Shown here: positions 2,842 to 11,284 of the stretch, one piece after another
How the letters are laid out: every line of letters begins with the position of its first letter
How positions within the stretch are numbered: position 1 is the first letter of the stretch
NCBI RefSeq assembly: GCF_000317205.1
Contig: NZ_AJLK01000172.1
Coordinates: 1 to 36,575 of the forward strand
Source of the DNA: Fischerella muscicola PCC 7414
GTDB lineage: Bacteria > Cyanobacteriota > Cyanobacteriia > Cyanobacteriales > Nostocaceae
DNA length: 36,575 bases
Direction of reading: 5' to 3'
Position numbers and translations under genes: made by a program
Notes under the pieces: generated by a model
What the model was told of the DNA's origin: nothing
The model's database searches: none
What the model saw: only the letters and a program-made list of their open reading frames with translations

Positions 2842-3717
2842 TTAAGCCGCAGACCAACAAAGAGGGGTAGGTTCTAAACCTACCCCTACTTCTTCTAAAA
2901 TACTGCGTCCAACTGCTGCTGCTACTGGCTTTAAACTATCAACTAAATCCACCATATCTTCTAAAGACAAGGCTTGACGGGCGTCAGAAACGGATTTTTC
3001 CGGTTCTGGGTGACATTCAATAATTAAACCATCTGCACCACAGGCAACAGCAGCCCTCGCAACAGGTGCTACTAACTCTCGCTTACCAACTGCATGGGAA
3101 GGATCTACAATCACGGGTAAGTGGGTGATTTGCTTGAGTGCTGCTACTGCTCCTAAATCCAACACGTTGCGGGTATAGTTATCAAAACTACGGATACCCC
3201 GCTCACACAACACTACATCTGGGTTGCCGTGGCTTAAAATATATTCGGCTGCCATAACAAATTCTTCAATTGTCGCTGCTAAACCACGTTTGAGGAGAAT
3301 GGGTTTACCAGCTTGTCCTAAAGCTTTGAGTAAATCGAAGTTTTGCATATTGCGACTACCTACTTGCAGCATATCAGCGTGTGCAGCAACTACTTCGATT
3401 TGAGAGATTGTCATGACTTCAGTTACAATTGGCAGATTATAACGCGATCGCACTTGTGCCAAAATCTTCAATCCCTCCTCGCCCATTCCCTGAAAAGCAT
3501 AGGGAGAGGTACGAGGTTTATAAACACCACCACGCAAAGCATTTACAGATGCAGGAGATAGCTTTTGGGCAACAGTCTCCATTTGTTCGGTGTTTTCAAC
3601 TGTGCAAGGTCCCCCAATAATTACTACTTCTTTACCACCAAAAGCAACTGTTTGAGAAATTTTCACAGTGGTTTGATGGTGAGAATGGGGTTTAGCGGCT
3701 AATTTGGCATTGATCAT
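2842..3717 (-). CDS. aroF: 3-deoxy-7-phosphoheptulonate (DAHP) synthase, type I-beta
   Basis: Joins phosphoenolpyruvate and erythrose 4-phosphate, the entry step of the shikimate pathway to Phe, Tyr and Trp. The 291-residue barrel carries GGPCTVE (metal Cys38), RGGVYKPRTSPYAFQG (62-77), QVGSRNMQNF, LLKRGLAAT, CERGIRSF, DPSHAVGKR and IIECHPEPEKSVSDA, the KdsA-like I-beta pattern. The start at 3717 is chosen because AGGAGA lies 8 bases before that ATG. An in-frame extension to 3822 would be translated from simple-repeat DNA. The protein lacks the N-terminal ferredoxin/ACT-like regulatory domain of the Thermotoga enzyme and any chorismate mutase domain, so obvious allosteric control is missing. 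The 400-base leader with two aromatic leader peptides and terminators is a likely substitute. Confidence 0.93.
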   Translation of the reverse strand: MINAKLAAKPHSHHQTTVKISQTVAFGGKEVVIIGGPCTVENTEQMETVAQKLSPASVNALRGGVYKPRTSPYAFQGMGEEGLKILAQVRSRYNLPIVTEVMTISQIEVVAAHADMLQVGSRNMQNFDLLKALGQAGKPILLKRGLAATIEEFVMAAEYILSHGNPDVVLCERGIRSFDNYTRNVLDLGAVAALKQITHLPVIVDPSHAVGKRELVAPVARAAVACGADGLIIECHPEPEKSVSDARQALSLEDMVDLVDSLKPVAAAVGRSILEEVGVGLEPTPLCWSAA

Positions 3718-3740
3718 CTTCCGGCTCTCCTGAAAAATAG

Positions 3741-3780
3741 AGTAATGGTTAGTAGTTAATGGTTGGTGGTTGATTGGTAG
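3741..3780. repeat. Heptamer short tandem repeat (STRR)
   Basis: A run of degenerate GGTTAGTAGTTAATGGTTGG-type heptamers between the second aroF attenuator and the aroF ribosome site. The same sequence style recurs in at least eight other gaps of this window. Confidence 0.6.
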
Positions 3781-3827
3781 GGGTACAAAGCTTTGGGCAT
3801 GTACAGTAGTCATTCCAAACAACCAAG

Positions 3828-3863
3828 AAAAAACAAAACCCGGAACCTTGGTGAAGTTCCGGG
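3828..3863 (-). terminator. aroF attenuator terminator 2 (proximal)
   Basis: Minus strand: CCCGGAAC (3863-3856) pairs perfectly with GTTCCGGG (3846-3839) around a 9-base loop, followed by TTTTGTTTTTT (3838-3828). This is a textbook intrinsic terminator lying 110 bases upstream of the aroF start, inside its leader. It would stop transcription before aroF unless its 5' arm is captured by the upstream segment GTTCCGGG at 3900-3893. Confidence 0.88.
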
Positions 3864-3910
3864 TGCTGGCGTTTCATCGGCATGACACTTTACCCGGAAC
3901 TTGTTCTGGG
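3856..3910 (-). promoter_or_regulatory. aroF attenuator 2: protector (1:2) and antiterminator (2:3) segments
   Basis: Four mutually complementary segments in transcript order: 1 = CCCAGAAC (3910-3903), 2 = GTTCCGGG (3900-3893), 3 = CCCGGAAC (3863-3856), 4 = GTTCCGGG (3846-3839). 1:2 pairs 7 of 8, 2:3 is a perfect 8 of 8 antiterminator, and 3:4 is the terminator. Segment 1 lies in the leader-peptide codons right after the last Trp, and segment 2 ends at the leader stop codon. A ribosome stalled on aromatic codons would cover segment 1 and free 2 to pair with 3. This is the trp/phe operon logic. Confidence 0.8.
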
Positions 3911-3949
3911 CCAAAAGTAAAAGTAAAACCAGCTACCGAAGTAAATCAT
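3890..3949 (-). CDS. Aromatic leader peptide 2 of aroF
   Basis: A 19-codon ORF, MIYFGSWFYFYFWPRTSSG, with nine aromatic residues in its first 13 (Phe 4, Tyr 3, Trp 2). AAGGAGA (3967-3961) is a strong ribosome site 12 bases before this ATG. A second ATG at 3960 opens a four-codon ORF overlapping it by ATGA. The stop codon falls exactly at the edge of antiterminator segment 2. Codon content, position and the following terminator identify it as a leader peptide that senses charged Phe/Tyr/Trp tRNAs rather than a functional protein. Confidence 0.85.
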   Translation of the reverse strand: MIYFGSWFYFYFWPRTSSG

Positions 3950-3966
3950 GACGATGGCATTCTCCT

Positions 3967-4000
3967 TAAAAAACAAAAACCGCAGAGTTTGCTCTGCGGT
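3967..4000 (-). terminator. aroF attenuator terminator 1 (distal)
   Basis: Minus strand: ACCGCAGAG (4000-3992) pairs perfectly with CTCTGCGGT (3987-3979) around CAAA, followed by TTTTTGTTTTTT. It sits directly before the ribosome site of leader peptide 2, leaving no room for a promoter between the two. The aroF transcript must therefore read through it. Confidence 0.85.
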
Positions 4001-4047
4001 TCACCGGGCGGTTTCCATTAGGAAACTAAATTCACTCCCGGTGAACC
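3998..4047 (-). promoter_or_regulatory. aroF attenuator 1: competing hairpin
   Basis: GGTTCACCGGG (4047-4037) pairs perfectly with CCCGGTGAACC (4008-3998), enclosing a second stem GTTTCC-TAAT-GGAAAC (4026-4011). Its 3' arm shares three bases (4000-3998) with the base of terminator 1, so the two structures compete for the stem next to the U-run. Its 5' arm is made of the last codons of leader peptide 1, so a ribosome reaching that stop codon would block it and favour termination. Confidence 0.65.
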
Positions 4048-4088
4048 ACCCTAAACCAGTAATAATAGTAGGAATTGCTGCTAAACAT
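4032..4088 (-). CDS. Aromatic leader peptide 1 of aroF (Tyr-rich)
   Basis: An 18-codon ORF, MFSSNSYYYYWFRVVHRE. Six consecutive aromatic codons (four Tyr, Trp, Phe) sit just before the 5' arm of the competing hairpin, and the ORF is followed by terminator 1. An in-frame TAA lies five codons upstream of the ATG, so this is the full ORF. No good Shine-Dalgarno is visible, which is not rare in cyanobacteria. The bias to Tyr differs from leader 2 (Phe/Trp/Tyr mix), suggesting the two attenuators respond to different shortages. Confidence 0.78.
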   Translation of the reverse strand: MFSSNSYYYYWFRVVHRE

Positions 4089-4136
4089 GTGCGAGGTGCT
4101 TTATTTGAAAAATTTAATTTAGACCTATATCCAAGA

Positions 4137-4165
4137 ACGATAACAGACGGTTTGAGTATCGTCAA
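4137..4165 (-). promoter_or_regulatory. Candidate promoter of the aroF leader transcript
   Basis: Minus strand TTGACG (4165-4160), 17 bases, then TATCGT (4142-4137). Initiation would fall near 4130, about 40 bases before leader peptide 1 and about 410 before aroF. The -35 box is good and the -10 box weak, so this is a position-based suggestion. Confidence 0.35.
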
Positions 4166-4202
4166 TACCTTTTCCGGAAATAGCAAGAAGGATAAGAAAT
4201 GA

Positions 4203-4654
4203 AAATATTGAGAACGGCAATAGAAAAGTATAAAATATTTGTTTTTTTACCTACGTAAAATCTAGAGAATCCAGTAGATGGCCCCACAATCTAAAATAAA
4301 CGATAGACTCATTACAATGTTGAGGTTCAAAAGTAGTTGTGTGCTTGCGTAGATACTAAGCAGCTTGTTATTAGACATATCGCTCTCAGAAATTTAAGAT
4401 GCCTATGTTAGTGTACTGACATAATTCAATAGCAAGTAGGAGCGAAGCATTTGTACGAAGATATTTAGTTTTGAACTAAAAGATACCCAGCCCATAGCTT
4501 CGCCCGTACAGTAGATAGTGGTTAGTAGTAGGTAGAAACACACAGCTTTTCCTGCGTACAGTAGCTAGTAGAACCAAATAACAAACAATCAACAACTAAC
4601 AACTACCAACTAACTATTTTGATTAATTCTCGGCTGAATTCTAGTGATTGTATT
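4203..4654. other. Intergenic region with simple repeats
   Basis: No gene seen. From about 4516 to 4616 it is built of GTACAGTAGATAGTGGTTAGTAG and AACAATCAACAACTAAC-type heptamers (STRR), ending just before the next gene. Confidence 0.5.
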
Positions 4655-5386: not shown

Positions 5387-5802
5387 CTGTCGCTGATCTT
5401 TCTCTACTGGTACTATCTATCCAAGGATCACAGCTACTAGCAAAAAATTAATAGTAGGAAAAATTGTATTTTAAAGTACTGGACTTAAACCTAAAAATAA
5501 GTAAGCTTACTGTTAAAATCAAACTATTGAGCGTGTGACGCAGGTAAATCTGGCTTGATTTTTGGTAATACAGGCATTACAAAAAATTGATAATCAAGTT
5601 GACTAGCTAAAGCAATTGTTACAATTTCTTAGACAATCCTATCAGAGCAGAGCAGTATGACATTGCTCTAACTGTCGCCAAAGCAACAGAAAAACTGCGA
5701 ATTTCAGCTGAAATATTCCCAATAGCAGAAACACTAGACAAAGAATTTAGCTGATAGTTGGTTGCATCACTCATAATTAAGTTGATTATTACCAAAAGTC
5801 TT
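5387..5802. other. Gap with possible gene remnants
   Basis: No intact gene. Two short protein-like stretches remain without starts: on the plus strand about 5625-5754 (ending AETLDKEFS then stop) and on the minus strand about 5527-5620 (ending KPDLPASHAQ then stop). Both could be decayed gene ends; I cannot name a family for either. Confidence 0.3.
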
Positions 5803-6654
5803 ATGAGAGAGCTGGAGCGGTATTATCGGGTGTTAGAGTTAGAGCCTGGAGCAAGCCTAGAGGAGGTGAACCAGGCTTACAAAGACTTGGCTTTTATTTG
5901 GCATCCCGATCGCATCCCCCTAGAAAATCAGCGTCTAAGAGAAAAGGCGCAAAAAAAGTTACAAGAAATTAACGAGGCTAGAGAAAAATTGCGCTCTCTC
6001 AAAACCAAGCATCAAATTCCCCATCATTCCCATCACTCCCATCACTCCTATCACTCGTATCAGCCTTATCAGCATCATTCCCCACCACCCCCACCAAAAA
6101 AGCCACAAACAAAAACTACCTATCAATCAGCAAACCCTCAATCAGTAAACCCTCAATCAGCAAACCCTCGCTCAGCAAATCCTCAATCAGCAAACTCTCA
6201 ATCAGCAAACTCTCGTTCAGCAAATCCTCAATCAGCAAATCCTCAATCAGCAAACCCTCAATCACCAAACTATGAACCACCCAAGCAAAACCCAGACTTG
6301 AGTGGCAAAGATTTTAGCCATGCCAATTTAAGTAATAAAGACTTATCTGGCAGAAACTTGAGTTACGCCAACTTGAGTGGTGCAAATCTCAGTGATGCTT
6401 TTATGCATAAAGTCGTCCTCAGAGGTGCGGATTTATCTGAAGCCAACTTGTTTAGGGCTAACTTACTTTTGGCAGATTTGCGAGAAGCTAATCTCCGGAA
6501 TACTAACTTAATTGGTGCTGACTTGAGTGGTGCTGATTTGCGTGGTGCTGACTTGACAGGCGCACGTGTTCGTTCTGGCGATCGCTTACTCGTAAAACTG
6601 ATTGGTGCTAACCTAAGTGGTGCTATCATGCCCGATGGCAATGTTCATGACTGA
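5803..6654 (+). CDS. J-domain protein with His-rich linker and pentapeptide repeats
   Basis: A 283-residue predicted Hsp70 co-chaperone-like protein. Residues 1-65 form a J domain with the diagnostic HPD at 34-36 (WHPDRIP). About 73-92 is His/Tyr-rich (HHSHHSHHSYHSY), then a proline run. About 107-155 is a tandem NPQSA five-residue repeat encoded by 15-bp DNA units. The C-terminal ~115 residues are pentapeptide repeats of the A(D/N)LSG type that fold into a right-handed beta helix. The J domain should stimulate DnaK ATPase, with the helix as a targeting or scaffold surface; that division of labour is inference. The ATG at 5803 is chosen over the TTG at 5758 because the J domain begins directly after it. 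J-plus-pentapeptide fusions are a cyanobacterial theme. Confidence 0.85.
   Translation: MRELERYYRVLELEPGASLEEVNQAYKDLAFIWHPDRIPLENQRLREKAQKKLQEINEAREKLRSLKTKHQIPHHSHHSHHSYHSYQPYQHHSPPPPPKKPQTKTTYQSANPQSVNPQSANPRSANPQSANSQSANSRSANPQSANPQSANPQSPNYEPPKQNPDLSGKDFSHANLSNKDLSGRNLSYANLSGANLSDAFMHKVVLRGADLSEANLFRANLLLADLREANLRNTNLIGADLSGADLRGADLTGARVRSGDRLLVKLIGANLSGAIMPDGNVHD
6121..6272 (+). repeat. 15-bp coding tandem repeat (NPQSA)n
   Basis: About ten copies of a 15-base unit close to CAATCAGCAAACCCT, in frame, varying mainly at third positions and CAA/CGC/CGT. It makes a disordered Asn/Pro/Gln/Ser/Ala linker. Copy number is probably variable between strains. Confidence 0.85.
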
Positions 6655-11210: not shown

Positions 11211-11284
11211 GGGACTGTAGTTCAATTGGTTAGAGCACCGCCCTGTCACGGCGGAAGTTGCGGGTTCGAGCCCCGTCAGTCCCG
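11211..11284 (+). tRNA. trnD: tRNA-Asp (GTC)
   Basis: A 74-base cloverleaf. The acceptor stem GGGACTG/CAGTCCC has discriminator G. The anticodon arm is CCGCC-CTGTCAC-GGCGG with anticodon GTC, and the T arm is GCGGG-TTCGAGC-CCCGT. The 3' CCA is not encoded. Confidence 0.97.

Follow-up and report, generated by a model that had tools for sequence, protein, structure and literature searches.

A tandem aromatic leader upstream of aroF in Fischerella and other cyanobacteria, very likely a double ribosome-mediated attenuator

The aroF gene of the cyanobacterium Fischerella muscicola PCC 7414, which encodes a type I-beta DAHP synthase, is very likely preceded by two ribosome-mediated transcription attenuators arranged in series. 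The window, meaning the whole stretch of DNA that was analyzed, comprises positions 1-36,575 (36,575 nucleotides) of contig NZ_AJLK01000172.1. The ORFs, the terminators, the competing pairings, their conservation and covariation, the placement of the control codons, and the missing domain of the enzyme are all computed; translation of the leaders, ribosome stalling, termination, and the logic of the series are inferred. The evidence is comparative and computational, with no transcript, ribosome, or reporter data behind the attenuation model. An initial annotation, made from sequence alone, had placed two aromatic-rich ORFs, two terminators, and two competing hairpins in this region, and these held. 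It read them as leader-peptide attenuators stacked in series upstream of an aroF whose product has no regulatory domain. That reading is supported by comparison, with translation and termination still inferred, and the check that the annotation proposed on relatives was passed, as aromatic codons are kept and the stems carry compensatory changes. All leader features lie on the minus strand, in the order promoter-like site, leader peptide ORF 1 (LP1), leader peptide ORF 2 (LP2), and aroF:

4165-4137, minus strand: promoter-like site TTGACG-17-TATCGT (pattern scan and comparative enrichment upstream of LP1)
4088-4032, minus strand: LP1, MFSSNSYYYYWFRVVHRE, stop TGA (ORF list; conserved in relatives)
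4047-4037, minus strand: arm A of antiterminator 1, GGTTCACCGGG, within LP1 (folding and alignment)
4026-4011, minus strand: inner hairpin GTTTCC...GGAAAC within antiterminator 1 (folding)
4008-3998, minus strand: arm B of antiterminator 1, CCCGGTGAACC, whose AACC doubles as the base of terminator 1 (covariation)
4002-3977, minus strand: intrinsic terminator 1, with a T tract to about 3967 (pattern scan, -16.3 kcal/mol; covariation)
3967-3962, minus strand: AAGGAG, the likely LP2 ribosome-binding site, immediately past the T tract (sequence reading)
3949-3890, minus strand: LP2, MIYFGSWFYFYFWPRTSSG, stop TAA (ORF list; conserved in relatives)
3902-3892, minus strand: arm A of antiterminator 2, AAGTTCCGGGT, at the end of LP2 (folding and alignment)
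3864-3854, minus strand: arm B of antiterminator 2, ACCCGGAACTT, which is the 5′ arm of terminator 2 (folding and alignment)
3864-3838, minus strand: intrinsic terminator 2, with a T tract to about 3827 (pattern scan, -16.7 kcal/mol; covariation)
3717-2842, minus strand: aroF, type I-beta DAHP synthase of 291 amino acids without the ferredoxin-like domain (Pfam, nearest structures)

In each ORF the final codons double as arm A of the antiterminator, which pairs as GGTTCACCGGG:CCCGGTGAACC in LP1 and as AAGTTCCGGGT:ACCCGGAACTT in LP2. The overlap of antiterminator and terminator in unit 1 is the AACC at the terminator base, only four or five bases, so that folding of a shortened terminator remains possible. 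In unit 2, arm B of the antiterminator and the 5′ arm of the terminator are the same sequence, wholly common to both structures. LP1 has no obvious Shine-Dalgarno sequence. The linker from the LP2 stop to arm B (3889-3865) is strongly conserved, reading ATAGCGTCATG...ACGC in most Nostocales sequences; a small internal hairpin is predicted within it in the window, and it has no role in the model.

In the proposed mechanism, a ribosome supplied with ample charged aromatic tRNAs would pass the aromatic codons of LP1 to the stop codon and cover arm A; arm B would then be free, terminator 1 would fold, and RNA polymerase would stop near 3967. When charged tRNA-Phe, tRNA-Tyr, or tRNA-Trp is short, the ribosome would stall within the aromatic block, shortly before arm A. 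Arm A would pair with the emerging B, the base of the terminator would be removed, and the polymerase would continue. At LP2 the polymerase would then meet a second switch of the same kind, whose antiterminator and terminator have the whole of B in common. Full aroF expression would require read-through at both units and, if both respond to the same signal, would follow the product of two read-through probabilities.

This arrangement resembles the enterobacterial trp, phe, and his attenuators in its short ORF of control codons, competing antiterminator, intrinsic terminator, and biosynthetic target, and differs from them in having two units in series, each with three aromatic codon kinds. The E. 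coli attenuator design includes a protector (1:2) hairpin. The aroF leader, in contrast, has no supported hairpin of this kind: in unit 1 the candidate is 87.6% paired and shows no covariation beyond shuffles. The untranslated RNA is therefore predicted to favor antitermination at unit 1. The anatomical criteria of a classical attenuator, namely the ORF, the antiterminator, and the terminator, are met twice over, and the leader is inferred to work like such an attenuator, doubled.

Conservation in close relatives was assessed with an AroF protein search, from which the best 80 loci from other genomes were taken, by their titles mostly Nostocales. The nearest is that of Fischerella thermalis PCC 7521 (98% AroF protein identity). 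At least 448 nt upstream are kept in 77 of the 80 loci, and three are cut within 102 nt of the gene. LP1 is present in 76 of the 77 and LP2 likewise in 76, with the LP2 of L008 and the LP1 of L066 set by hand before counting; the upstream region of the exception (L072) is masked, and the end of LP2 is still present there. The usual leader sequences of relatives are MLNTNSYFYFWFRVVHRE and MTYFSSWFYGFYFWPRVSSG, and the stop codons of the two leaders mostly lie 142-149 nt apart, the largest distance being 361.

The tandem leader is spread widely across cyanobacteria. Covariance models R1 and R2, built from the Nostocales alignments without aroF, were run on 388 cyanobacterial genomes and matched at least 141 and 117 of them, respectively, with one match per genome; the first unit (R1) was found in 72 of the 160 genera sampled. 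These genome counts are lower bounds, given the Nostocales-derived models, rough E-values, and strict filters in large scans. Both models match in 111 genomes, in every case (111/111) on the same strand, with R1 ahead of R2 and 8-184 nt between them. An AroF match lies in the fetched stretch in 145 of the 147 genomes with either model, one of these genes being broken (G116). Of the two exceptions, one is a contig that ends before the gene, with both leaders visible by eye (L187); the other (G299) has an E-value of 3e-4, a stop within the aromatic block, and no AroF, and is possibly a relic or a chance match. In the reverse direction, a close AroF (at least 64% identity) occurs in 142 genomes, 141 of which have a model match; the remaining one (G321) shows both leaders by eye, with few aromatics in LP1. 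These 142 genomes were picked by hand, with the partial G003, G059, and G261 excluded and G313 (221 residues) retained.

An automatic ORF scan recovered both leaders in 128 of the 145 genomes. After hand corrections in six (G025, G040, G054, G193, G135, and G277), LP1 is counted in 140, LP2 in 137, and both in 133. The doubtful LP2 of G057 is among the 137 and was excluded from the LP2 alignment and from the codon-position counts. One duplicate LP1 was removed, and G128 and G299, with no AroF in the locus, are outside the ORF counts. A hairpin with a T tract follows 140/140 LP1 and 137/137 LP2, as found by a best-hairpin search without a shuffled control. The criterion for a tandem attenuator, two complete units in the same order and on the same strand that are kept in evolution, is met, with single-leader exceptions.

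A leader ORF is expected to carry clustered control codons that specify the end product, and this criterion is met, with aromatic fractions of up to 0.97 in LP1 and 0.98 in LP2. Upstream of arm A, the aromatic fraction of LP1 is 0.89-0.97 at codons 7 to 3, 0.71 at codon 2, and 0.05 at codon 1; from codon 0 on, within arm A, it is 0-0.04. The fraction in LP2 is 0.63-0.73 at codons 10 to 8 and 0.84-0.98 at codons 6 to 3, and the edge is softer, with values of 0.30, 0.15, and 0.16 at codons 2, 1, and 0. Between 44 pairs of sister genomes, 35 codon changes fall in the LP1 block, of which 27 keep an aromatic residue; for LP2, 41 of 71 changes do so, compared with 16-18% for random single changes. 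The positions in this comparison were chosen for being aromatic.

The position of the block was compared with a masking model in which the ribosome hides a footprint reaching from 15 nt behind the first base of the A-site codon to 12 nt ahead of it, the 12-nt leading edge being an assumption, and in which the RNA is cut before the 3′ arm of the terminator. For a ribosome stalled on LP1, the predicted number of A:B pairs is about 10 at codons 4-14, then 9.0 at codon 3, 5.6 at codon 2, and 1.4 at codon 1; for LP2 it is 6.5, 4.5, and 1.8 at codons 3, 2, and 1. With no ribosome in the model, A:B still forms (9.9 pairs for LP1 and 5.3 for LP2). The codon profile and the masking model together indicate that the aromatic block ends about where stalling stops sparing arm A. 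The codon-placement criterion, that a stalled ribosome leaves arm A free, is met as a prediction of this model and its assumed 12-nt edge.

The amino acid signal read by each leader bears on the logic of the series. One rival explanation holds that the attenuators are specialized, LP1 reading Tyr and LP2 reading Phe, Trp, and Tyr, so that together they form an AND gate over different amino acids. It is suggested by the window itself, where four Tyr codons stand in a row in LP1 and Phe and Trp abound in LP2, and the initial annotation had likewise described one leader as Tyr-heavy and the other as mixed. As a general rule this description failed, and the rival is unlikely, because codons for Phe, Tyr, and Trp are all present in 137 of 140 LP1 and 131 of 137 LP2, and because the YYYY run is a local Fischerella variant (relatives mostly have YFYFWF) at codons where F and Y exchange. 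All three codon kinds occur in both leaders in 127 of 133 genomes, and the mean Phe/Tyr/Trp codon counts are 3.2/1.8/1.2 in LP1 and 3.9/2.1/1.6 in LP2. Since both leaders hold all three kinds, the series is most readily understood as multiplying repression and sharpening the response to a shortage of any aromatic amino acid; that it does so, rather than reading different amino acids, is a likely inference.

A second rival treats the leaders as TnaC-like arrest peptides, with the ribosome responding to free aromatic amino acids rather than to charged tRNA. TnaC is an arrest peptide that responds to a free amino acid. Conservation of the leader peptides at the residue level could be taken in its favor. 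It is, however, very unlikely, as F, Y, and W interchange within the block, the spacers between them differ, and conservation at the C-terminus falls on the residues encoded by arm A.

Support for attenuation also comes from the stems, for which the criterion is that the mutual exclusivity of antiterminator and terminator be conserved by covariation. Two-sided stem changes within Nostocales are few (6, 2, 5, and 9 cells in four tests), and in one of the four tests the slid control exceeded the real pairing (14 vs 5). The Nostocales stems vary too little, and a diverse set was therefore needed. For LP1, 139 diverse elements were aligned with MAFFT without reference to structure. Antiterminator 1 is 93.6% paired in these 139 sequences, with two-sided changes at 8 of 11 pairs and 143 two-sided cells compared with 38.7 ± 5.7 in shuffles; when its partners are slid by one column, a control that preserves relatedness, pairing falls to 42-55%. 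Terminator 1 is 94.5% paired in the same set, with 7 of 11 pairs two-sided and 56 cells vs 14.2 shuffled. The shared AACC of LP1 shows the combinations T-A-T in 119 sequences, T-G-C in 11, C-G-T in 6, and C-G-C in 3, each of which can pair both ways. A separate observation concerns Nostocales alone, where the terminator 1 stem (window 3978-4001) is invariant at nine of its ten pairs in 75 sequences, including in the part not shared with the antiterminator.

The LP2 set consists of 135 sequences in their own alignment, evaluated with 300 shuffles. The A:B stem is 79.9% paired, with 123 two-sided cells vs a shuffle mean of 54 (maximum 80), and the B:D stem is 93.6% paired, with 97 vs 35 (maximum 55). 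Neither the number of pairs with two-sided changes (A:B 5 vs 4.6, B:D 3 vs 2.4) nor the number of pair types (A:B 20 vs 20.1, B:D 12 vs 11.7) exceeds shuffles in LP2. One of the nine columns shared by A, B, and D reads T-A-T in 46, C-G-C in 38, and C-G-T in 15 of the 135 sequences, which is the pattern that two exclusive pairings demand; the remaining eight show no full three-way swap to that extent. Placed on the AroF tree, this triple requires at least 3 changes among the 84 genomes with either state, compared with 27.5 for shuffled labels, and single pairs show 3 to 28 changes between standard types, one-sided changes included. The labels are clustered on the tree, and cell counts therefore overstate the number of independent events. 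The exclusivity criterion is met, with the overlap in unit 1 partial and the case for unit 2 resting on cell counts.

The predicted stabilities of the single hairpins depart from chance. Antiterminator hairpin 1 (4047-4037 with 4008-3998) folds at -27.0 kcal/mol (z -5.9) and antiterminator hairpin 2 (3902-3892 with 3864-3854) at -21.2 kcal/mol (z -4.5). When the two antiterminators and two terminators are folded singly, 0 of 200 shuffles is as stable in all four cases. At equilibrium the full first element adopts the antiterminator together with a shortened terminator, and the full second element adopts the terminator (z -2.1, with 5 of 200 shuffles as good). Since the second element prefers its terminator at equilibrium, switch 2 would depend on A:B forming first. 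A pattern scan of 3 kb on both strands found 6 terminator-like sites vs 2.2 expected. Rfam gave no match at E ≤ 1 within 3600-4400, and across the whole window at gathering score it gave only a tRNA at 11211-11284 and no regulatory RNA.

Single-leader genomes can be cited for a further rival, in which only one unit is regulatory, its companion being a relic or merely a terminator. By ORF scan, LP1 stands alone in six genomes (L165, L176, L179, L183, L207, and L151), five from one family and two read by eye, and LP2 alone in four, one of which (G326) has little upstream sequence; LP2 of G381 was seen by eye only. The partial overlap of antiterminator 1 with terminator 1 can also be cited for this rival. 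It is nevertheless very unlikely, as both models match in those 111 genomes and both units keep aromatic codons and covarying stems in the diverse sets. The existence of LP1-only and LP2-only genomes implies either that two units are not obligatory or that one is unrecognized there; the LP1-only genomes may represent an ancestral single unit or the loss of LP2. One genome of the window's family has a broken aroF (G116; L296, G116:C48). Its LP1 is intact on inspection, and terminator 1 and LP2 are lost; the ORF scan finds neither leader there, yet R1 matches. This natural loss fits the attenuator model.

Attenuation also presupposes transcription from upstream of LP1. A pattern scan found no excess of promoter-like sites in the region (7 vs 6.9 in shuffles), so the support for the site at 4165-4137 is comparative: a site matching at least 9/12 lies upstream of LP1 in 69 of 75 Nostocales sequences (window included) vs 10% of shuffles, and in 40 of 139 of the diverse set vs 7.4% of shuffles. 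The corresponding rival explanation places the aroF promoter downstream of terminator 2 and gives the leaders another role. The lack of excess in the region scan and LP2-aroF spacers of more than 250 nt in some Nostocales speak for it. Against it stand the enrichment upstream of LP1, the absence of any promoter-like site of 9/12 or better from the final 100 nt ahead of aroF (12 genomes were long enough there for this test), and a median distance from LP2 stop to aroF of 105 nt in 137 diverse genomes, which together make it very unlikely.

The enzyme encoded downstream of this putative double attenuator consists of a catalytic domain only. Pfam finds PF00793 and NeuB in the window AroF and no PF18152; the domain that is missing is thus the ferredoxin-like one, not the ACT-like domain whose absence had been annotated. 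PF18152 is full in two of the three paralogues in the same genome and partial in one (just below cut-off). The nearest solved chains are 1vs1, 1zco, and 4c1k, and the DAHP synthases of A. pernix (1VS1) and P. furiosus (4C1K) are listed as uninhibited by Phe, Tyr, and Trp (PMC6362186). These Pyrococcus furiosus and Aeropyrum pernix I-beta enzymes have a catalytic domain without a regulatory extension, as in the window AroF; they are archaeal, however, and the inhibition behavior of the cyanobacterial enzyme is inferred. PF18152 was absent from all eight leader-linked AroF of other genomes that were scanned, and 143 of 145 leader-linked genes leave no room for its 67 extra residues. Two leaderless enzymes (54-55% identity), from genomes without model matches, carry the ferredoxin-like domain. 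Six further genomes without model matches have no aromatic leader at their best AroF match, their domains being outside the scan. The other three DAHP synthases of the Fischerella genome have no short upstream ORF with five aromatics in nine codons. Control by the leader fits an enzyme without a feedback domain of its own, whose feedback insensitivity is inferred.

Two side observations concern these paralogous and distant genes. An aromatic-rich ORF lies 429 nt upstream of one of the two PF18152-bearing enzymes (G020). A DAHP synthase paralogue on contig G000:C81 (L001, L304) adjoins an anthranilate synthase family match, an arrangement that agrees with the redundant trp/aro cluster known from Nostoc/Anabaena (PMC1173090).

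A bolder reading treats the tandem leader as an old and widespread cyanobacterial stand-in for protein allostery. A subfamily lacking PF18152 would be placed under two attenuators of the same signal, with domain-bearing paralogues leaderless; feedback would have moved from the enzyme to the RNA, and the second copy would steepen a multiplicative response. We incline toward this reading by a narrow margin.

Tandem attenuators have an experimental precedent in Salmonella mgtCBR, where the signals are ATP and proline and the effects are additive (PMC3641672). Like the aroF leader, mgtCBR has one leader with two short ORFs, each part of an attenuator; its signals differ from each other and its hairpins are unlike intrinsic terminators, whereas both aroF units have the same control-codon kinds and terminator-like hairpins. 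The uORFC-13-1 motif, a predicted Phe-reading uORF upstream of Acholeplasma aroF (PMC8632094), resembles the aroF leader in placing a predicted uORF ahead of an intrinsic terminator, and the gene has the same function. It is a single unit with at least one Phe codon and 24 representatives, from Acholeplasma and environmental sequences only, in contrast with the two units, dense mixed aromatic blocks, and cyanobacterial hosts of the aroF leader. Merino's database predicts attenuators before I-beta DAHP synthase genes, as here, for example in Thermus, and two attenuator units were noted for the Streptococcus supraoperon (PMC1173090); the rows of its Table 7 that were covered, part of the table, include no cyanobacterium and leave the kind of attenuator unstated.

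The initial annotation knew of no double aromatic attenuator described in cyanobacteria, and no aromatic attenuator from this phylum was found in the titles and abstracts of the literature searched (open-licence only, with subscription papers and preprints mostly uncovered). A 2016 survey of leader genes stated that there were no reliable data on attenuation in cyanobacteria (PMC4833913), against which the aroF leader stands as a deeply conserved candidate. It makes directly testable how tightly cyanobacterial transcription and translation are coupled for attenuation, and would provide a clear example both of two attenuators that read the same signal in series and of RNA control paired with an enzyme without a feedback domain. 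It may also serve as a regulatory part for aromatic production in cyanobacteria.

Within the Fischerella genome, four F/Y codons followed by Trp occur at 23 places vs 14 for the reversed control pattern. Of the 23, LP1 and LP2 alone combine a short ORF and start codon with a strong terminator downstream, at -17.2 and -18.0 kcal/mol; the closest other candidate with a start codon reaches only -7.6. No third comparable unit was found by this pattern, which is blind to other layouts. Some aromatic-rich frames are present around the trpE and pheA hits of the same genome. Elsewhere in the window, an 11-pair palindrome at 2863-2887, inside the 3′ end of aroF, has a terminator-like score on both strands, and an ORF at 5758-6654, judged by reading only, begins like a J-domain and contains an array of NPQSA repeats as well as pentapeptide-like repeats.
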